Origin: a virus
Length of the DNA stretch: 20,871 bases
Strand: one strand, 5' to 3'
Virus record (IMG/VR): IMGVR_UViG_3300025930_000041
Span: 1 to 20,871 of that record
Position numbers and translations under genes: made by a program
The notes under the pieces: model-generated
Seen by the model: only the letters and a program-made list of their open reading frames with translations
What the model was told of the DNA's origin: nothing
Database searches by the model: none
Part shown: piece by piece, positions 193 to 14,638 of the stretch
How the letters are laid out: each line of letters starts with the position of its first letter
How positions within the stretch are numbered: the first letter of the stretch is position 1

Positions 193-518
193 GCGACCGG
201 CCCAACCTCCCGCTGCCAGATGAGTTGGCGCAGGTCCGCGCCGACATCAAACGCCTGGAGGAGCGCGAGGCGGCGATCCGCGGCATCCTGCTCTCGGACC
301 CCGACACGCGCACCGGCGCCTCCTGGATCGCCGAGGTGAAGACGGTGCAGCAGGAGCGCGTGGACTGGAAAGAACTGCGCGCTAACCATCCCGGCATCAC
401 CGACGAATATACCTTCCCTGTGCAGGTCACGCGCGTCGTGCTGAGCGGTGTCGATGAGCACGGCGAGATCATCCCAGCGCGGCAGTTCCGCAAAGCCACA
501 GAAAGCCAGTCGCTATGA
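189..518 (+). CDS. Hypothetical protein of the recombination operon (109 aa)
   Basis: GTG start with a strong SD (GGAGGG at 177-182, 6-nt spacer). The stop overlaps the next gene's ATG in an ATGA (515-518). The N-terminal half is a charged helix (about residues 10-33, with motif IKRLEEREAAI). It is followed by a segment with TGASWIAEVKTVQQERVDWKEL, compatible with a short helical DNA- or protein-binding domain, and a beta-rich C-terminus. Small helical proteins of this layout often precede phage recombinases, and coupling to the annealing-protein gene supports a role in recombination or replication. I do not recognise a named family. Confidence 0.75.
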   Translation: MSDRPNLPLPDELAQVRADIKRLEEREAAIRGILLSDPDTRTGASWIAEVKTVQQERVDWKELRANHPGITDEYTFPVQVTRVVLSGVDEHGEIIPARQFRKATESQSL

Positions 519-1336
519 ACGCAGTCACGACACAGGAAACCGTCTCGGCTCAGACGCTGGAGCATGTGCTCGGTACAGGCGACCTCTCCAAACTGACAAC
601 CGGCCAGCGGGTTGAGTTCATGGCCCGCACCTGTCAATCGCTTGGCCTCAATCCATTGACCCGGCCATTCAGGTTCCTGCAACTCAATGGCCAGATCCAG
701 ATGTACGCGACGCGCGACTGCACGGATCAGCTCCGCAAGCTCCACAAGATCAATCTGGCGGTGATCGACAAACAGCAGGACGGCGACGTTTACATCGTCA
801 CGGTGCGGGCCAGGACACCAGACGGCAGGGAAGATGAGGACATCGGCGCCGTGACGCTTGGACAGCTACAGGGCGACGGCCGGGCTAATGCGCTGATGAA
901 GTGTCTCACCAAGGCCAAGCGCCGGGTGACGCTTTCGATCTGCGGGCTGGGCCTGTTGAGCGAGGATGAACTGGACACGCTGCCGGGCGCGGCTGTGTTC
1001 GATGCCGATGAACGGCCACCGGTTCAGACACGTCGCGAGCAGATCAACAGCGAAGTGCCGTTGGAGCAGCAGCCCGGCGTGCAGAAGATGACGCTGCGCC
1101 AGTGGCTCGATGACTTCGAGCTGCGCTGCCAGCGGGCCGAGACCGAAGAGCAGGCCAACGCGATCCTGAACGAAGAGCGGGTGCTGCGGCTGGATGATCC
1201 GGCGCTGGTCATCAACGAGAGCGCGCGCCAGCGGGCACTGGCCGCACGCAAGGCGATGGTGAATCGCATCTGGGCTGAGCCGCCGAATGAGGACGAGGAC
1301 GAGAGCGCGCTGGACCCGGAATCGGTGCCGGCATAA
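515..1336 (+). CDS. RecT/Sak-like phage protein, putative single-strand annealing protein
   Basis: The 273-residue protein opens with an acidic helical segment, then a conserved core: SLGLNPLTRPF (about residues 43-53), ATRDCTDQLRKLH (about 70-82) and KAKRRVTLSICGLG (about 134-147) followed by an acidic DELDT. Phage proteins with the pattern 'NPLTRPF ... DQLRK.H ... KRRVTLSICGLG' occur in recombination modules and resemble the RecT/Sak annealing superfamily. That assignment is from memory of the family, not a search. The C-terminal third is charged and probably flexible, as in many annealing proteins that use it for SSB contacts. The ATG is coupled to the upstream 109-aa gene. No exonuclease partner lies in the window; it could be upstream. 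Transcription should end at the hairpin at 1363-1412. Confidence 0.65.
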   Translation: MNAVTTQETVSAQTLEHVLGTGDLSKLTTGQRVEFMARTCQSLGLNPLTRPFRFLQLNGQIQMYATRDCTDQLRKLHKINLAVIDKQQDGDVYIVTVRARTPDGREDEDIGAVTLGQLQGDGRANALMKCLTKAKRRVTLSICGLGLLSEDELDTLPGAAVFDADERPPVQTRREQINSEVPLEQQPGVQKMTLRQWLDDFELRCQRAETEEQANAILNEERVLRLDDPALVINESARQRALAARKAMVNRIWAEPPNEDEDESALDPESVPA

Positions 1337-4833: not shown

Positions 4834-5091
4834 ATGGAACTGATGATTGGCGCCGGCCTTGCACTCGCGCTGCTGTATTTCTGGCTGATCGGGCACTGGT
4901 TTGCCCGCGTGGTGACATTCCTCGCCTTCGGCGCTGGGTTTGTCTTGCTCGGATTAGCCATAGAACACGGGAAGAGTGCTGCCGCAGAACTGGCCTGCAT
5001 CGCGCTCGGATTCGTCGCTGGATGGTTCGTCGCAAGCCTGCCGACTTACTACTGGCGCCACCAACTCAGACAGATGCTGCAGCCCTACTAG
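4834..5091 (+). CDS. Three-TM small membrane protein (85 aa)
   Basis: ATG at 4834 follows the previous stop (TGA at 4830-4832) by one base, so translation is probably coupled; no clear SD is visible. Three hydrophobic segments are evident: about residues 4-20 (IGAGLALALLYFWLIG), 25-43 and 50-69 (AAELACIALGFVAGWFVAS). A short polar tail ends in QPY. It could be a holin, or a superinfection-exclusion protein acting with the secreted protein encoded just upstream. Its TAG (5089-5091) overlaps the stop codon of the convergent ejection-protein gene, with no terminator between them. Confidence 0.72.
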   Translation: MELMIGAGLALALLYFWLIGHWFARVVTFLAFGAGFVLLGLAIEHGKSAAAELACIALGFVAGWFVASLPTYYWRHQLRQMLQPY

Positions 5092-7706
5092 CGAGCCAAC
5101 GGGTTCACGGGTCCGTAGTCGTAGCCACCAGGCGGTGGGTTAAGCCCCCGCCGCACAGCCCGTCGAAGCATGACGTTGCCGGTCAATTCGCCTCCTTTCT
5201 TCAGGGCGCCATGCAGCATCAGGTTTGCAAGCGGGGCACCTTCCGTGGCCGCCGCAATCGCAAGGTGCGCAGCCCCTATCCCGCCTGCCTGGGCAAGAGC
5301 AAAAAGCAGGTTCGTATTCGAGCCTCGCGCTTTACCAAGATCGATGTTGCTGGCGCGCTTCAGATCCTTATCGATCATAATGAGGCCGCGCATTGTTTCG
5401 TCGGATATACCCATCGCAGGATCGACGCCCGGCCTCGCTCGCCGGATCGCCAGATCTGTCACGAATTTATGGAACGCCGTGGCGTTGATATCCCCGTTTC
5501 GGTTAGTGAGCTTCGGCCGGAACTTCTGCAACTCTTCCATCGAGTTGATATCAGCAGCGAATTTCGCCTGGTTATCAAGGAATGTTTGGAATGCTCCATC
5601 ACTGGCGGCGTTGTTAACCCCATCAATGATCCTCTTGTATTCGACCAGCAGCTTGGTGGCGTAGCGTTCAGCAGCCGTCCTGTCACCCGCCTTGTCCAGC
5701 CGGTCGATTAGGTTGTCATGCATCCCCCAGCCTGATCCTGGGTCGGTCTTTAGAGCGCCTTTTTCATCAAACAGCGCCCCTCGCAACTCGCGCAGAACTC
5801 GCATTCGTTCCGGTGATTCGCGCATGCGAGGATCGGCCATCTTCTCATCCAACCACCTCACGGCTGGGCTGTAGTCGAGATCCTTGGCCACTCGCATATA
5901 GGCCGCACCGTCTTTCTCTGCCGCGGCTGCCTTTGCGTCGCGCAAATCCTGAAGCTGCGGCGCGGTTCCTTCCATCTTCTCGTAACTATCAACGCGTGCC
6001 TGGGTGTTTTTTCGGAGCCGCTCATCGAATTGGTTAGGGGCGCGTTCGCGGTGCAGTGACTCCTTTTGCGAGACAGCAGCATCCCCCGAATATTCGGCCA
6101 ACGTCGGTTCCGAGCCATGCACATAAATGTTCTTGTCCATACCGCGCACTGGTGGCGCGAGAACCTCACCCAGCTCAGCTTGCTTACGGTATGCCTTCAT
6201 CTGCGCAGGCGTCAGCCTTGCAAGCTCTTCAGGCGTCGCCGCAGCGCCAACACTTCCCGGAACACCTGCCGCCTGGTTTTCTTGCTGGATTTCGGCGACG
6301 CGATCCCGCACGCCACTGACCCATTGATGGTCTTCCGGGGACAGAGGCGGCAGCGCGCCGCCCGGCTTTGCTGCGGGGCCGGGCTGCGGAGCGCCGGCAT
6401 CGCCAGTTGACGGCACGACCCCTGGCGGCTTTGCACCAGGACCAACTTCGCTGGGCGGCACAAATGCCGGAGGCTCTACTGGCGCCACAGGACGAGGGGC
6501 CACATTGACGCCCGGCGGCACAAAGGCCGGTCGCTCTGGTGGCGGGGCTGCTGCCAGCGGGTTCGCTGGCGTACCTTCGCCGTAGTATTCCTGCACAAAC
6601 CTCGGGCCTGATGATGGCGCCTCCGGGATGGGCGGCCTGCCTGGCACGCGCAACTCAGCGCCGCCGGTCGGGAATGCCTCCGGCAGCGCCGCGATCTCAC
6701 GGCCAAGCGATCCGGGTGTGAGTTCACCGGACAGTTGCCGTCCACCACCGAGCGGGATCGTCACACCCGGCGGCAACGACGGCAGATGAATGTCTGGCGT
6801 CGCCTCCACAGCGGTCTGCTGAGCGCCACGAAGCAGCGCGTTACCGCCGCTCAGCACGGTCTCTGCGGCGGTAATGAACGGATTGTAGATAGGTGCTGTC
6901 ACGTAAGAAGACGGCACCCGCGGGAAAGATGGACCGCCCTCCCAGCCTTCCTTGACCGCTCCCACAATGCGCTGTGCAGCGGGTGACGGCGTGCCGGATG
7001 GTGGCGCATTGATGCGGTCCATGTCGGTCGGCGATACCAGCGTGTCGCCCACAGCGACCGGCGCTGGTCCTTGCTCGCGTGGCGGAGCTGTGGTGGCCGC
7101 TGACGGCTTCGGAGCCGGCGGCAGCAGGTCTAGCGGGCTACCGCCTGGAGCGGCCTCCTGCCCCGTCCCAGCGCCACCGCTGGGCATCTGAACGGGTGCC
7201 GCACCACCACCAGCCTTCGGAGCCGGCGGCAGCAGCTTCAGCGCGTCTTCACTGGCCATGGGTTTTCCCGGCGCTGTATCGGTGATGACTGTCGGCGTCG
7301 CCTGCGCGACCTGCACGCGCGCTGCGGCGTCCTGCTTCGGCGCCAGCTTCACGTATTGCGCCGTGACGGCCGGCACGTAGCCGCGGCTCTCCGGCCCGAA
7401 GCTCTGCCGCCAGCCGGGTCCGCCGTGATAGTAGAGCAGCGCCTTGTCCGGCGTGCCTTCCTTGTCCAGCGCCTCATTCAGATACTTCGCCGCGCCGTAG
7501 ATCGACTGCACCGGATCGTGCGGGGCGGTAACGCCGAGCTGCCGCTGGGTCTCCGGCATGATCTGGCCAAGGCCCTGCGCGCCGGCCTTGCTGACGGCCA
7601 TCGGGTCGCCGCCGCTCTCGTGCAGGATCAGCGCCTTGAGCAGCCGCGGGTCGAGGTTCCACTCGGCCGCCGCGTCGTTGATGATCGTGTCGTAGTTATC
7701 AGCCAC
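5088..7706 (-). CDS. Large ejection (internal virion) protein with N-terminal lytic transglycosylase domain
   Basis: GTG start at 7706 overlaps the preceding gene by 8 bases, with a GAAGG SD inside it. Residues about 6-130 form an SLT/goose-lysozyme-like lytic transglycosylase domain: catalytic Glu30 in LHESGGDP, then SKAGAQGLGQIMPETQ and the later YYHGGPGW corresponding to the family's Y-N-A-G-P-G. A Pro/Ala/Gly-rich disordered linker follows (about residues 140-480) with repeated LLPPAPK and PAFVPPG motifs. The rest is a long helical region with an Ala/Leu-rich near-membrane segment close to the C-terminus (LLFALAQAGGIGAAHLAIAA). Position after two other ejection-type genes matches P22 gp16. 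It would be injected with the DNA, cut peptidoglycan and help form the trans-envelope channel. It is the last gene of the main late operon. Confidence 0.85.
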   Translation of the reverse strand: MADNYDTIINDAAAEWNLDPRLLKALILHESGGDPMAVSKAGAQGLGQIMPETQRQLGVTAPHDPVQSIYGAAKYLNEALDKEGTPDKALLYYHGGPGWRQSFGPESRGYVPAVTAQYVKLAPKQDAAARVQVAQATPTVITDTAPGKPMASEDALKLLPPAPKAGGGAAPVQMPSGGAGTGQEAAPGGSPLDLLPPAPKPSAATTAPPREQGPAPVAVGDTLVSPTDMDRINAPPSGTPSPAAQRIVGAVKEGWEGGPSFPRVPSSYVTAPIYNPFITAAETVLSGGNALLRGAQQTAVEATPDIHLPSLPPGVTIPLGGGRQLSGELTPGSLGREIAALPEAFPTGGAELRVPGRPPIPEAPSSGPRFVQEYYGEGTPANPLAAAPPPERPAFVPPGVNVAPRPVAPVEPPAFVPPSEVGPGAKPPGVVPSTGDAGAPQPGPAAKPGGALPPLSPEDHQWVSGVRDRVAEIQQENQAAGVPGSVGAAATPEELARLTPAQMKAYRKQAELGEVLAPPVRGMDKNIYVHGSEPTLAEYSGDAAVSQKESLHRERAPNQFDERLRKNTQARVDSYEKMEGTAPQLQDLRDAKAAAAEKDGAAYMRVAKDLDYSPAVRWLDEKMADPRMRESPERMRVLRELRGALFDEKGALKTDPGSGWGMHDNLIDRLDKAGDRTAAERYATKLLVEYKRIIDGVNNAASDGAFQTFLDNQAKFAADINSMEELQKFRPKLTNRNGDINATAFHKFVTDLAIRRARPGVDPAMGISDETMRGLIMIDKDLKRASNIDLGKARGSNTNLLFALAQAGGIGAAHLAIAAATEGAPLANLMLHGALKKGGELTGNVMLRRAVRRGLNPPPGGYDYGPVNPLAR
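7107..7235 (-). repeat. Direct repeat encoding the LLPPAPK motif
   Basis: A 21-base sequence occurs identically at 7107-7127 and 7215-7235, 108 bases (36 codons) apart, within the linker of the 872-aa ejection protein. Both copies encode the core LLPPAP. The in-frame spacing indicates an internal duplication of a linker motif rather than a mobile element. Confidence 0.8.
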
Positions 7707-9246
7707 CGAAAACCTTCAGATCCTTGGCCTTCTGGATCGCCGCACCGAGTTGCTTCTGTGTCGTGTCGTCCAGGCTCTTCCAGTAGCTGTCTCGCTGTGG
7801 CTGTGTCATGCGAGCAAGATGGAACACGCGCGGGTCAAGTTCCTTCACGCTCTCCTGGAATGCCGGGTAGTTCGCCTTGTCGGGGTACTTAGCGGCGAGC
7901 GAGGCACGGGCGCGGATGTAATCGGCATTGCCCTGCAGCGTGCGGATGATGAAATCGACGCCCTCCGGTGATTGTGCCGAATGTGGAGTGGCCGCCATGT
8001 TCAGGTTCATACGTCCGTCGCTGCCTGGGTTCTGCGCCTGCACCATCTGAGCCGCAACCTTATCGAAGCTCTCCTGCGCCGCGACTTCTTCTGGTTTGAT
8101 GTTGAGCGCCTTCGCCAACCCCGGCGCCCATGTGACGGCCGCGCGCTTCCAGTCGAGCGTCCTGCCGGCGCCTGAACCTGAAGTGAATTTCGTCAGGTCG
8201 GAGAGCATGGTGCCGTAGTTGGCCAGCTGCATCTGCGCGGCGGTGTCGGCCTCCGCTTCCTTCTGGAACAGCGGCGGGCCGAGGTCGCCCTGCTTCTCGG
8301 TCGCCGCTGCGGTCGCTTTCTGTGCCGGCGTCGGGCCACTGACCCCCGTCCCTGCCGGCGACGGGGCTGGGGTCGCTGTAGGCGGCCTCTTGGGGTTCAG
8401 CAGTTCCGGCGGCGGGCGCCCGGTTCCGAGCGGCGATGCCTGCGAGCCAGGCGAGGCCGGAGCACCGCCAGGATAGACGTATTGGTCCGGCACCCCGCTA
8501 TCCCGCAGGAATGTCTCGTTGGTGCCGTGCTTGACGACAGTGGGATTGGCCGGGTCGGGATAGTCCCGCGGCGACTTCAGCCAGCGTTGATATTCCAACG
8601 TGCTCTCTGGCGACACTCCTTGCGGCGCCCCCGGTTGCGTCGGCGCATCCACGGCACCCGTGCGGAGGTTCTGGCGTGTACCGATTGTCTGACCGCCCGG
8701 CCCGGTCTGTGTGCCCAGCCTGCCGGAAATCTGCTGTTGCTGCAGCTCAGGCGGCGACAACGAAATCTGGATCTGCTGCAGCCGTTGCCGTAGTTGCGTC
8801 GGGTTGTCGGCCGGTAGAGCGAGCGCCGCTCTGGTTGCTTGTTCCTGTGTCCAGCCACCGTTGGCAACGAGGCCATGCAGCCCAGCAACAACGCGATCAT
8901 GCAGCCCGGCATCATCGCCATCCAGCGCGCCAATGATGGCGTTACTCACCGCCTTCTTCCGTGCAAGTCCCTGATCAAGTTGCTGGCCTTGAATGGTCGA
9001 TGTCTGTCCCAACGCCTTGAGCATGCCCTGGCGCGCCAGCGGGTCTTTCGAGGCCAATGCCTGCGCCCTTGGGTAATTGACATTGCCATCGGCGTCCGTG
9101 GCCTGCTGCAGTGCGTTGCCCCACGCCTCGGTCGCCTGCTTGTCGCGCAGGTCGTAGACCTTGCCCGCCGCATCGAGCGCCGTGGTCTGCGCCTGCAGCG
9201 GGTTGACGACAACCGGATCGGCCAGGCCGTGCGTGCTGCCACTCAT
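7699..9246 (-). CDS. Putative ejection (internal virion) protein, gp20-like position
   Basis: ATG at 9246 has an AGGAG SD that overlaps the upstream stop region. The 515-residue protein is Ala/Gln-rich and mostly helical in its first 180 residues. A Pro/Gly/Thr-rich disordered stretch follows (about 190-325), then a helical C-terminal domain (from about DTAAQMQLANYGTMLSDL to the end, KAKDLKVFGG). There is no signal peptide, membrane segment or enzyme motif. Its placement between a short Ala/Gly-rich ejection protein and the transglycosylase ejection protein parallels P22 genes 7-20-16, so delivery with the DNA is inferred from synteny and composition. The stop overlaps the next GTG start. Confidence 0.7.
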   Translation of the reverse strand: MSGSTHGLADPVVVNPLQAQTTALDAAGKVYDLRDKQATEAWGNALQQATDADGNVNYPRAQALASKDPLARQGMLKALGQTSTIQGQQLDQGLARKKAVSNAIIGALDGDDAGLHDRVVAGLHGLVANGGWTQEQATRAALALPADNPTQLRQRLQQIQISLSPPELQQQQISGRLGTQTGPGGQTIGTRQNLRTGAVDAPTQPGAPQGVSPESTLEYQRWLKSPRDYPDPANPTVVKHGTNETFLRDSGVPDQYVYPGGAPASPGSQASPLGTGRPPPELLNPKRPPTATPAPSPAGTGVSGPTPAQKATAAATEKQGDLGPPLFQKEAEADTAAQMQLANYGTMLSDLTKFTSGSGAGRTLDWKRAAVTWAPGLAKALNIKPEEVAAQESFDKVAAQMVQAQNPGSDGRMNLNMAATPHSAQSPEGVDFIIRTLQGNADYIRARASLAAKYPDKANYPAFQESVKELDPRVFHLARMTQPQRDSYWKSLDDTTQKQLGAAIQKAKDLKVFGG

Positions 9247-10109: not shown

Positions 10110-11177
10110 CTACCCTCCTAGTTCTAATCTATAAAGCTGCCCGAAGTCAGACATTCCCAGCCGGCGATAAAACGTGCCGAGCCGCGGCCCCGAGCCGCGA
10201 TGCCCGGCGCGCGCGATAACGCCTGTGACACCGCGCTGCTTTAACCGTTCCAATGCCTCCCGCTGCAGCTTCATGCCAAGGCCGCGGATATCGGGGGAGG
10301 CGAAGAAGATCGTATGCCACCCCTCGAGCACATCTGGCGCGTCCAGCGTCGGTGCAACAATCGTCATCAGGTAGCCATGCATCAGGCCATTACGGCTGCG
10401 CGCTGTCAGTATCTGCAACAGTCCCAGGTCATCCATCGCTTTTGCCAGCGGCAGGTTCTTCAGCGCGTGGTCGTCCGGCGACTGTTCGGTCTGCACCAGG
10501 TGCTCGTGAAACAGATGCTGCGCATCCCGATAGAACACATCGAACGGCTCTACCTGGAAGGTCACGCCGTCAATTTCGCTGCGGTGGCTTTGCATGCCGG
10601 CAATGATGCGGTGCTTTGCCACCTTTGCCAGCTTATCGAGTTGAGGCCGGTGGGCCGCCATATAGCGCATCAGCAACGGCAGGCTGATCTGGATGTTGAT
10701 GCCATGCCAGTGTTGCCACCAGGCGGCGTCCCACGGATACGGCAGGCAATGCTCCCAGACGCGGCGACAGCCATCCTCCGTGGCAAGGTCATCAAACGTC
10801 ACAGCGAGCACGTCCGGCAGGCGACGCGCGATCTGGCGAAGCTTCGCCTCGAGATGCTGCATAACGGCCCGCATCACCGTGTCATCGAACACCAGTCCGC
10901 CACGGCGCAGCGATGCCAGCACCTCGTCCACCGAGCGAGTGACCGTGACTATTTTCATACCCTTGGGAATGAGACGCCAAAAAGGCGCAAGGCTTGTTTC
11001 ACACGAGCCGCTCATAGGCTGACTCAGCCATGCCCGCACATCGTCCAGAGAACGCATGTGCCTGATTTCGTCATGCCCGCAGCAATACTCACCGTATGAG
11101 AGGTAGCGCGAGAGCCACGCCGACCGGCTTCTGGGCATGGCGACCACTAAAAACTGTGTCGGATGAGCGGCTAGCAT
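10110..11177 (-). CDS. Sulfotransferase-like domain fused to a GNAT acetyltransferase-like domain
   Basis: The N-terminal part (about residues 1-230) has the two PAPS-binding signatures of P-loop sulfotransferases. The 5'-phosphosulfate loop is seen in VVAMPRSRSAWLS (Pro15-Arg16-Ser17, usual form PRSGT-T-L). The 3'-phosphate motif is seen in KIVTVTRSVDEVLASL, with Arg81 and Ser89 at the canonical 8-residue spacing. The C-terminal part (about 240-355) resembles a GNAT domain: IRGLGMKLQREALERLKQRG, close to the family's R/Q-x-x-G-x-G/A CoA loop (Arg298, Gly301, Lys at the last position), then a strand and FYRRLGM typical of the final helix. Ser19/Ala20 where a Gly/Thr is usual may weaken sulfotransferase activity. 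It sits between a small tail protein and the ejection genes, so it may modify virion proteins or act on host targets. Two active domains, or one degenerate and used for binding, are both possible. Confidence 0.65.
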   Translation of the reverse strand: MLAAHPTQFLVVAMPRSRSAWLSRYLSYGEYCCGHDEIRHMRSLDDVRAWLSQPMSGSCETSLAPFWRLIPKGMKIVTVTRSVDEVLASLRRGGLVFDDTVMRAVMQHLEAKLRQIARRLPDVLAVTFDDLATEDGCRRVWEHCLPYPWDAAWWQHWHGINIQISLPLLMRYMAAHRPQLDKLAKVAKHRIIAGMQSHRSEIDGVTFQVEPFDVFYRDAQHLFHEHLVQTEQSPDDHALKNLPLAKAMDDLGLLQILTARSRNGLMHGYLMTIVAPTLDAPDVLEGWHTIFFASPDIRGLGMKLQREALERLKQRGVTGVIARAGHRGSGPRLGTFYRRLGMSDFGQLYRLELGG

Positions 11178-11178
11178 G

Positions 11179-11535
11179 CTAGAAGCGGGGCGGCATCAGC
11201 GTGTCCGCGCCAATGCCGGCCTCCAGCGCATCGAGGCGGACGAGCACGGACGCGATGGCGCCGGCGATCTGCTGGTCGACGTATGCCTTCGGGGTAGCAT
11301 CGTTGCCGTCCACCGGCATGACGTTAGGCAGCGACACCGGCTCCGGCTCCGGCACAGGCGGCGGCTCGTAGGGCGAGACTTTGTAGTTGTTGGCGATGAT
11401 GTCCTGGTATTCGGCATTCGCCGGATCAGTAGGCACGTAGAACACGCCGGGGCCGGTGAGATTGCCGAGTGTCTCCTTGTCGTCCAGCGTCGCCTGGATC
11501 GTGGTATTCGCTGCGTTTGTGTATACGAGTTCCAT
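11179..11535 (-). CDS. Small tail-associated protein (118 aa)
   Basis: ATG at 11535 with a GAGGCAA SD that overlaps the tail-fibre stop. The N-terminal half (MELVYTNAANTTIQATLDD ... YQDIIANNY) is a compact domain often found in short proteins just after phage tail-fibre genes. A Pro/Glu linker follows (YEPPPVPEPEPVS), then a helix (PKAYVDQQIAGAIASVLVRLDALEAG). A fibre-assembly or chaperone-like role, or a minor virion part, is suggested only by position. Its stop and the next gene's ATG lie in a 12-bp perfect palindrome (11171-11182). Confidence 0.7.
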   Translation of the reverse strand: MELVYTNAANTTIQATLDDKETLGNLTGPGVFYVPTDPANAEYQDIIANNYKVSPYEPPPVPEPEPVSLPNVMPVDGNDATPKAYVDQQIAGAIASVLVRLDALEAGIGADTLMPPRF

Positions 11536-11543
11536 GGGTTGCC

Positions 11544-12608
11544 TCAGAGGTCCGCCGACAGGTTATATCCGACGTTGATAGCCCATTGCCCTGCGGCAGC
11601 AGCTATTCCCTGTGTGTATAAAAAACCGCTACCCGCAACGGATGTGACGCTATTAAGATTTAGCGGCGCGCTACCAGTCATCACGACAGTTGGTGTCGCT
11701 CGCATGGCTACTGGAATTGATACCGATGCAGCTATGGTCAATCCAGCACCGCTTGCATAACCAGCAACATATTGTCCTAGCGTCTGATAGAACCGCTGGC
11801 AGGCGGCGAGCTGTTGCTGCGGCGGCAGTGCGACCCACGGCGTTGCAACAGATCCTGGCTCGAACTTCACTTGCGATAATGTGCCGGCGTTGAACTCGAT
11901 GGTGGTGTTGGCTCCTGCCGTGACGCTGCCGCTGACCGGTGACGCGGCATAGGAGCCGACGCCGATGCGTCCCTGTGCGGTGCCGGTCCATGACAGCGTG
12001 TAAGTGCCGCCAGCGAGCGCGCCACCTTCTATGATCTGCTGCAATGTGCCGGCGGTGATGGTGATGCTGGTGGACGGCCCTGATGGTGCGGCGAACGTGT
12101 ATGTCGCGCCACCCGCGCCGGCCTTCCATCGGTCGTGGCCATAGCTCCCGGCGGTGAGCGCGGCACCGCTCGTATAGGCCCTCTGGTTGATGGTGAATCC
12201 GCCGTTGTCGGCGTAGCTGGCGCCTGGAATAGCGGCGGCGGTTCCACCTGTAACAGCATTCAGAACATAGGCCGTTGTCGCGATCTGTGTGCTGTTGGTG
12301 CCTGCCGTTGCTGTCGGTGCAGCCGGTGTGCCGGTGAAGGTCGGTGATGCCAGCGGCGCGCGGGTAAGGTCGGACGGGTGGATGTGATCGCCGCGCGAGA
12401 CCGCTGCCGCCACGCCAGGCGCTGCTGTGCCGTCCATCATCGGCGGCGCCGCGCTGTAGTTCGGCGTGTAGGCGGTATTCGCGTAGCTGGCGATCTCGGC
12501 CATCGTCGCGGCGTAGGCTGTCGTGGACGCACTGCGCGCCAGCGGCAGCTTGTCGGTCGCCGTCAGCGTGCCGGGATCTGCGCCCGCACTGATTTTGGTG
12601 TCAGCTAT
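11544..12608 (-). CDS. Tail fibre protein with apparent AUA start codon (354 aa)
   Basis: The first ATG is at 12503, but the frame is open for 35 further codons up to an ATA at 12608-12606. The translation there, xADTKISAGADPGTLTATDK, is a normal tail-fibre N-terminus. A perfect SD AGGAGG (12619-12614) sits 5 bases before it, and an in-frame TAG lies only three codons further up, so no ATG, GTG, TTG or CTG start is available near the SD. The fibre then has the repeat-like HIHPSDLTRAPLASPTFTGT ... QIATTAYV, a beta-sandwich module (INQRAY ... YGHDRWKAGAGG ... YTLSWTGTAQGRIG ... EPGSVATPW) and a QRFYQTLGQ segment before the beta C-terminus. These are well-known phage tail-fibre modules for surface recognition. 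Confidence 0.78.
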   Translation of the reverse strand: MADTKISAGADPGTLTATDKLPLARSASTTAYAATMAEIASYANTAYTPNYSAAPPMMDGTAAPGVAAAVSRGDHIHPSDLTRAPLASPTFTGTPAAPTATAGTNSTQIATTAYVLNAVTGGTAAAIPGASYADNGGFTINQRAYTSGAALTAGSYGHDRWKAGAGGATYTFAAPSGPSTSITITAGTLQQIIEGGALAGGTYTLSWTGTAQGRIGVGSYAASPVSGSVTAGANTTIEFNAGTLSQVKFEPGSVATPWVALPPQQQLAACQRFYQTLGQYVAGYASGAGLTIAASVSIPVAMRATPTVVMTGSAPLNLNSVTSVAGSGFLYTQGIAAAAGQWAINVGYNLSADL

Positions 12609-13945: not shown

Positions 13946-14638
13946 TCAAAGAAGTCGGCCGATTTCCCTTGCCCATCGAAGGGGGTCTTTAGCCCATTTG
14001 CGGTGATTGCAAGTAGGACAGAGAAGCTGAATGTTGGTGATCCAGTTCGTGCCGCCTTTGCTGAGCGGCACGATGTGGTCAACGTGATAACCCGGCTTTA
14101 GCGATGCAGCACAACTAGCGCATCTTGCGCGCTGCCTCAGCAGCAAGTCCTTCACCTCAGCGCCACTATGGCGACCTTCGGCACCCTTCTTTCTTGCGTG
14201 TCTGCGCCGGTTATTGGCCTGCACCTGTTCTGGGTTGGCGGCGGCCCAGCGCTTGTATCTTGATCTTACTACCTCGGGATTTGCCTTGCGCTCTTCAGCT
14301 TTTTGCTTCGCTCGCTTCTCTCTGTTTCGCTCATACCAAGCCCTGAAAAATGCGCGCTTCTTGTCGGGGTTGGCAGCATCGTAGGCGTTGGCTCTTGCGC
14401 GTATCTTCTTTCGATTGGCCAGATAATATGCCCTGACCGCAGCGATTTCCGCTTCAGGATTTCGTCGGTAAAACTTAATGCGGTGGAGACGTTGGCACTC
14501 AGCACACTGCCGCGTGCTAACATAACGCTCAGTAATATGCCCCAATCGGCAAGGGGCGCCTGTAAAGTATCGTCTCAGTCCTCTGCGTCGAGCTTCTTCT
14601 AAGCCGACGATGGGACGGGTATCATTGGCGTCAGCCAT
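13946..14638 (-). CDS. Free-standing HNH homing-type endonuclease (230 aa)
   Basis: The C-terminal HNH domain is complete. Zinc-ribbon cysteines C173-x2-C176 and C207-x2-C210 flank the HVDHIVPLSKGGTN motif (His185, Asp187, His188, Asn202), with His212 in CNHRK. The N-terminus has a second metal site typical of phage HNH proteins (PC30-x3-H34 ... C45-x2-C48). In the middle are Lys/Arg-rich repeats built around Asn-Pro (RRNPEAEI, AANPDKKR, KANPEVVR, AANPEQVQ) that likely wrap DNA. It interrupts the late operon between lectin-like and fibre genes, with a 66-bp non-coding leader (14639-14704) holding only an imperfect hairpin. By eye it is less GC-rich than its neighbours, which fits recent acquisition. 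It would nick or cut cognate alleles to spread. Confidence 0.88.
   Translation of the reverse strand: MADANDTRPIVGLEEARRRGLRRYFTGAPCRLGHITERYVSTRQCAECQRLHRIKFYRRNPEAEIAAVRAYYLANRKKIRARANAYDAANPDKKRAFFRAWYERNREKRAKQKAEERKANPEVVRSRYKRWAAANPEQVQANNRRRHARKKGAEGRHSGAEVKDLLLRQRARCASCAASLKPGYHVDHIVPLSKGGTNWITNIQLLCPTCNHRKWAKDPLRWAREIGRLL

Follow-up and report, generated by a model that had tools for sequence, protein, structure and literature searches.

A sulfotransferase-GNAT fusion encoded immediately ahead of the gp14-like DNA-ejection gene of uncultured podophages, with a possible role in late protein modification

Tyrosylprotein sulfotransferases (TPSTs), among them bacterial RaxST, have a P-loop sulfotransferase fold, and sulfotransferases more generally depend on an arginine or lysine in the PSB, a serine in the PB helix and a histidine or glutamate base between the two (PMC6637879; PMC11625862). 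Sulfotransferases are also encoded by phages, where their function has been stated to be unclear (PMC10580990). One unfused phage family, phrog_10855, is annotated as 'hydrolase' in Pseudomonas Mesyanzhinovviridae (phage Ab18 ORF36, for example) and is encoded among early/metabolic genes, away from ejection genes. Stand-alone GNATs, by comparison, are found beside the internal virion proteins of podophages (phrog_1249; Zobellviridae, Cobavirus pc40). In T7, gp13 (phrog_308, DUF2833; 138 aa) is encoded between the gp12-type and gp14-type genes, and gp14 is the first protein to be ejected and ends in the outer membrane, its N-terminus being located, prior to ejection, within the gp15 dome (PMC8954989). 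Here we describe a viral locus in which a sulfotransferase-like domain and a GNAT domain are joined in one protein, encoded directly ahead of the counterpart of gp14.

Domain composition and genomic setting of the fusion protein

The window analyzed, a stretch of 20,871 bases, is a complete IMG/VR virus record. An earlier note on this DNA had described a sulfotransferase-like/GNAT-like fusion gene between tail and ejection genes; its coordinates stand, but the strand had to be corrected to minus (read from 11177 to 10110), and the plus strand across the same interval is interrupted by stops (Table 1). The placement was confirmed: tail-fibre genes lie upstream, with the head-closure protein Hc3 (phrog_578, E 6e-91) encoded farther upstream still, and a phrog_598 ejection gene lies directly downstream. 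The ATG of this gene begins two bases past the TAG of the fusion gene and a GGAGGG ribosome site lies within the fusion's last codons, so that translation of the two genes is very likely coupled. Elsewhere in the window, a 273-aa protein of phage RecT/Bet-like appearance (515-1336, plus strand) had no Pfam match, and a 230-aa protein inserted among the structural genes (13946-14638, minus strand) carries an HNH-endonuclease-like motif, CxxC...HxxxDHIVPLSKGG...N.

Table 1. Features of the fusion gene and its neighbours (coordinates are those of the window)
Feature	Coordinates	Strand	Basis
Sulfotransferase-GNAT fusion gene, 355 aa	10110..11177	-	start ATG 11177, stop TAG 10112-10110; open frame and homologues
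N-terminal sulfotransferase-like P-loop domain, residues 1-195	10593..11177	-	AlphaFold; Foldseek to TPSTs; phrog_10855
5'-PSB-like loop PRSRSAWL, residues 15-22	11112..11135	-	R16 invariant
CGHDEI segment, residues 33-38	11064..11081	-	H35 invariant; candidate catalytic base by analogy
3'-PB-like motif R81-x3-E-x3-S89	10911..10937	-	R-S spacing equals RxxxDxxxS consensus
C-terminal GNAT domain, residues 205-355	10113..10565	-	Foldseek; phrog_1249; hhalign to stand-alone slot GNATs
DNA-ejection protein, gp14-like, N-terminus MGAAAAV, 283 aa	9256..10107	-	phrog_598, E 8.6e-24
515-aa protein, gp15 position of ejection operon	7699..9246	-	position; homologue in same place in relatives
Internal virion protein in gp16 position, 872 aa, with SLT transglycosylase domain	5088..7706	-	PF01464, E 3e-18; phrog_342 and others
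118-aa protein directly upstream of fusion	11179..11535	-	upstream placement kept in near relatives
Tail-fibre protein	11544..12503	-	phrog_4492, E 1.4e-32

The sequence motifs on which the earlier note had based its reading (PRSRSAWL, the pair R81/S89 eight residues apart, and YRRLGM at residues 337-342) were all located and exceed chance expectation. AlphaFold2 modelled the whole protein at pLDDT 90.4 and pTM 0.68, using a 38-sequence alignment of homologues that spans about 28-66% identity, and residues 1-200 alone at pLDDT 92.7 and pTM 0.88; in the latter model a strand (residues 75-80) and a helix (residues 83-92) are predicted at the PB-like motif. When the N-terminal part was compared with the PDB by Foldseek, tyrosylprotein sulfotransferases ranked at the top (E 1.7e-4, TMq 0.54), and P-loop kinases came next, scoring close behind. 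Residues 8-165 of the window protein furthermore matched phrog_10855 (E 1.4e-8). No Pfam model matched the window protein, and its homologues gave weak matches to Sulfotransfer_3 (12/38) and Sulfotransfer_4 (11/38), the best at E 6e-6 and all below the gathering cut-off where the score was given. A PDB sequence search with the N-terminal half had as its top match a designed helix bundle, aligned over a 20-residue repeat, which was dismissed as chance.

Within this domain, P15, R16, R18, W21, H35, G57, E60, T61, W67, R81 and S89 are each invariant in 38/38 homologues, and position 85 is E or D in 34/38. The published essentials of a sulfotransferase are all present, with R16 in the PSB, S89 in the PB, and H35 and E60 between the motifs, either of which could be the base. 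Both the PAPS-type signatures and the sulfotransferase-like character described in the earlier note are thus upheld, by the invariance of R16, R81 and S89 and by a predicted P-loop sulfotransferase fold with TPSTs as best matches, and we consider it highly probable that the N-domain is of sulfotransferase rather than kinase type.

For the C-terminal part, Foldseek gave 395 PDB matches at E<1e-3, and among the matches listed almost all were GNATs. Residues 246-352 matched the acetyltransferase family phrog_1249 (E 8e-4), Acetyltransf_1 was matched in 9/38 homologues, and one homologue (L056) passed PF00583 with 20.9 bits against a cut-off of 20.7, the window protein itself being unmatched. This half keeps H226, R260 and the majority of its glycines. 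The CoA loop of the window protein, RGLGMK, departs from Q/R-x-x-G-x-G/A, and the loop varies among homologues: R298 is R in 17/38 and P in 15/38, G301 is kept in 37/38, and at position 303, where the motif ends in G/A, 34/38 have K or R. Across ten pairs of relatives, dN/dS was 0.05-0.25 in each half, a sign of purifying selection on both. With two domains predicted as well folded within a single 355-aa protein, and the GNAT fold recovered by structural comparison, the two-domain architecture proposed earlier is close to certain; models lacking either fold, the outcome that would have spoken against the earlier note, did not arise.

Distribution of the fusion and contents of the slot

Relatives of the fusion protein are encoded on at least 287 IMG/VR stretches. 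They were found with a seven-member alignment as query, a scan of viral contigs with the single protein having returned nothing, and the best 80 of the 287 are all full-length two-domain fusions of 47-66% identity. A first scan of a genome collection was likewise without any relative, and with a tighter alignment one relative emerged, in the genome of Azospirillum rugosum IMMIB AFH-6. The fusion was not found among 50,697 phage records, which hold only the separate halves, and a BFVD fold search gave no two-domain match among the 50 matches listed (best TMq 0.35). Thus, the earlier statement that such a fusion is not known holds for these phage records, but the search for it elsewhere that was proposed alongside shows it to be common in uncultured viruses and widespread on their contigs. 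No anti-phage defence model of PADLOC was matched, and a defence function was set aside on that ground. Separately, the related phage CBW1004C-Prop1 (L132:1-77) has a gene annotated as sulfotransferase family 2 just upstream of its head-closure region.

The ejection gene adjoins the fusion gene in nearly all of the 80 loci, usually with a gap of -1 to +3 nt; at L046, short unrelated frames lie between them. Across diverse phages this adjacency stays while the genes upstream of the fusion vary. We compared the slot directly upstream of the ejection gene in 74 loci and found it occupied by a stand-alone GNAT, the sulfotransferase-GNAT fusion, a mini-GNAT, a hydroxylase with a cupin, or a cupin, with stand-alone GNATs and fusions making up the majority. 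Near relatives of the window phage, retrieved via their Hc3 protein for this comparison, carry a fusion of 64-65% identity (L014, L017), a diverged fusion (L010), a hydroxylase with a cupin (L016), or a sulfotransferase domain with a different short C-terminal domain together with a separate Asp/Asn-hydroxylase gene (L007, L008, L015; PF05118, above cut-off). As in L007 and L015, another C-terminal domain stands in place of the GNAT in L189, and L200 has no C-terminal domain. Since the GNAT can be replaced or missing, it does not follow that both domains act on one substrate.

Fused and stand-alone slot GNATs are homologous (hhalign 99.7%), and on the GNAT tree the sulfotransferase domain changes state a single time; the fusion is the sulfotransferase-equipped form of the GNAT that holds the slot upstream of the gp14-like gene. 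In the tree built from the sulfotransferase domain, variants with another C-terminus are nested among fusions and therefore look like later swaps or losses.

The slot is also filled by stand-alone proteins of ~95-105 aa with HxxVxRW...MGF motifs (L117:2057-2374, L118:1300-1608, L139, L176, L184), of which the C-termini of L007, L015 and L189 are a fused copy. These small proteins resemble a minimal GNAT or a gp13-like protein, profile comparison supported neither assignment, and hhalign did not support the mini-GNAT C-termini of L007 and L189 as true GNATs. Sulfotransferase-mini-GNAT remnants with frameshifts and stops lie at both ends of contig IMGVR_UViG_3300044699_000085 (L012/L031/L116), and represent either a damaged copy or an assembly/long-read error.

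Residue 2 of the ejection protein

Among fusion loci of the main type found in the scan, the ejection protein starts with Met-Gly in 79/79 readable cases, the contig of the 80th ending too soon. Counted as distinct proteins, those that follow a type-a fusion have Gly at residue 2 in 60/60, compared with 6/199 for other genes of the same contigs. Met-Gly is kept even at L055, L056, L084, L085 and L093, where no similarity to the ejection family was detected in the protein encoded downstream. Behind other slot enzymes, the ejection protein mostly starts with MV, MP, MS or MA. Residue 2 is V in 15 and G in 4 of the distinct proteins behind a stand-alone GNAT plus hydroxylase, the four G cases without a sulfotransferase forming one GNAT clade; it is P in 9/9 distinct proteins behind hydroxylase plus cupin, and S, T or A behind cupins. 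Exceptions exist: MP starts follow some fusions whose GNAT is ordinary (L010, L152, L161) or diverged (L172, L173), and Pro at the N-terminus is an unusual acceptor for GNATs. The Gly2 codon itself varies (GGT, GGC, GGA, GGG), on which ground an RNA-level reason for it was rejected; selection probably acts on the protein.

Nearly all residue-2 types found here permit removal of the initiator Met, which would expose them, and podophage pore proteins seem to be limited to such residues at this position. Two further observations concern these starts. A PF05118 (Asp_Arg_Hydrox) gene with a cupin in the slot and a Met-Pro ejection start occur together at L016:16785-17686, L140, L145, L166, L179, L188, L193 and L205, and most T7-like gp14 proteins compared (L112, L208-L214) start with Met-Cys (MCW, MCEP, MCDP), PPpW-4 being an exception.

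The match between slot enzyme and residue 2 could arise without any enzymatic relationship if exchange of the cassette dragged the first ejection codons along. Consistent with this, residue 2 lies 4-8 nt from the stop codon of the enzyme, and part of the association is therefore linkage. Moreover, positions 3 and 4 also fit the GNAT tree better than the tree of ejection-protein bodies (23 versus 35 and 18 versus 28 changes, respectively). However, linkage by itself does not freeze one residue, and within the type-a class residue 2 is invariant across body clusters below 50-60% identity while the adjacent position 3 has five states. For residue 2 the GNAT tree requires 6 changes, compared with 18 on the body tree and 19 in the best of 300 shuffles, whereas residue 3 requires 23 on the GNAT tree; the opening codons thus move together with the gene for the enzyme, and residue 2 is additionally held fixed. 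The body tree is weakly supported and had too few pairs for independent-pair tests. Hitchhiking as the full explanation is a genuine contender, if one with less than even odds.

Proposed role and comparison with known systems

We propose, with a probability of roughly 40%, that the fusion is a late podophage transferase of two domains whose target is the ejection protein translated along with it: the GNAT would acylate the newly exposed N-terminal Gly, and the sulfotransferase would act on some acceptor. Host methionine aminopeptidase would strip Met from the ejection protein and bare the Gly, whose amino group the GNAT domain would acylate, or whose N-terminus it would at least bind. The sulfotransferase domain would use PAPS, R16 and S89 contacting the cofactor and H35 serving as base, and sulfate a hydroxyl on the ejection protein, by our proposal a nearby one, or on another late protein. 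In modified form, the ejection protein would become part of the virion core, and core assembly or membrane insertion would be affected. Translated from the neighbouring frame, the enzyme is in a good position to act on the ejection protein as it emerges. The residue-2 pattern supports the acylation step, though exceptions of the L010 type weaken it, and conservation of the active site is what points to a sulfation step. Of the targets offered by the earlier note (virion proteins, host glycans or a host factor), we infer from gene position and residue 2 that virion proteins are favoured, specifically the adjacent ejection protein, and its identification as the substrate is tentative.

Doubtful, in our judgement, is a non-catalytic role in assembly, in which the protein would chaperone ejection proteins into the procapsid as T7 gp13 does from the same position, using both folds for binding. 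The gene order equals T7 12-13-14-15-16, the annotation of T7 gp13 describes a scaffold required to incorporate gp6.7, a GNAT beside internal virion proteins was earlier proposed as a gp13 counterpart (PMC6775973), and the CoA loop is non-canonical; however, the invariant R16, H35, R81 and S89 exceed what a scaffold needs, and hhalign detected no homology between the fusion GNAT and gp13/phrog_308 (probability 0.1%). T7 gp13 is thereby ruled out as a true homologue at the profile level and kept as a positional counterpart. A BFVD match in phage PPpW-4 was dropped as gp13 of that phage because the lengths disagree (140 vs 145 aa). Least probable is a moron-type enzyme that, late in infection, would add sulfate and acyl groups to surface glycans of the host or to a host factor, for superinfection exclusion or lysogenic conversion, in a merely convenient late operon: NodH and Stf0 sulfotransferases do act on glycolipids (PMC11625862) and separate sulfotransferase genes occur in phages (PMC10580990; CBW1004C-Prop1), but the slot is kept across very diverse phages while its upstream neighbours vary, residue 2 is matched to the slot enzyme, and the fusion sequence shows no evident signal peptide or membrane segment.

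Modification of the ejection protein may be one case of something broader, which we regard as unlikely at present: an exchangeable modification cassette (GNAT, sulfotransferase-GNAT, or Asp/Asn-type hydroxylase with cupin), each type matched to an ejection N-terminal residue (Gly, Val, Pro or Ser/Ala/Cys), would amount to a system, encoded by the phage, that modifies the N-terminus of the pore protein by which the host membrane is opened. If the enzyme does modify the ejection protein, podophages would chemically tune the first protein entering the host membrane, and a role would emerge both for the GNATs whose presence next to internal virion proteins is puzzling and for the phage sulfotransferases.

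No earlier description of the fusion, of its abundance in uncultured phages or of its fixed tie to the ejection gene was found in a literature search of incomplete coverage, and the nearest known systems each share part of it. TPSTs have the same fold (best PDB matches 8w5z, 5wrj and 3ap3), PSB Arg, PB-helix Ser and intervening base, whereas the N-domain of the fusion has ~15% identity to them at a TM of ~0.5, offers His rather than Glu as base candidate, is much smaller and is fused to a GNAT. Proteins of phrog_10855 are stand-alone homologues of the N-domain (~27% identity, profile E 1e-8 to 1e-10), and differ from the fusion in domain composition and gene neighbourhood. The stand-alone podophage GNATs are homologous to the GNAT domain of the fusion (hhalign 99.7% for that domain against the slot GNATs) and similarly positioned, but are without a sulfotransferase domain and accompany other ejection-protein starts. 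T7 gp13 shares the position, although fibre genes intervene upstream in the window, and has no sulfotransferase part. Compared with these systems, the fusion is a new domain architecture built from known kinds of enzyme, and one that is widespread in uncultured phages.
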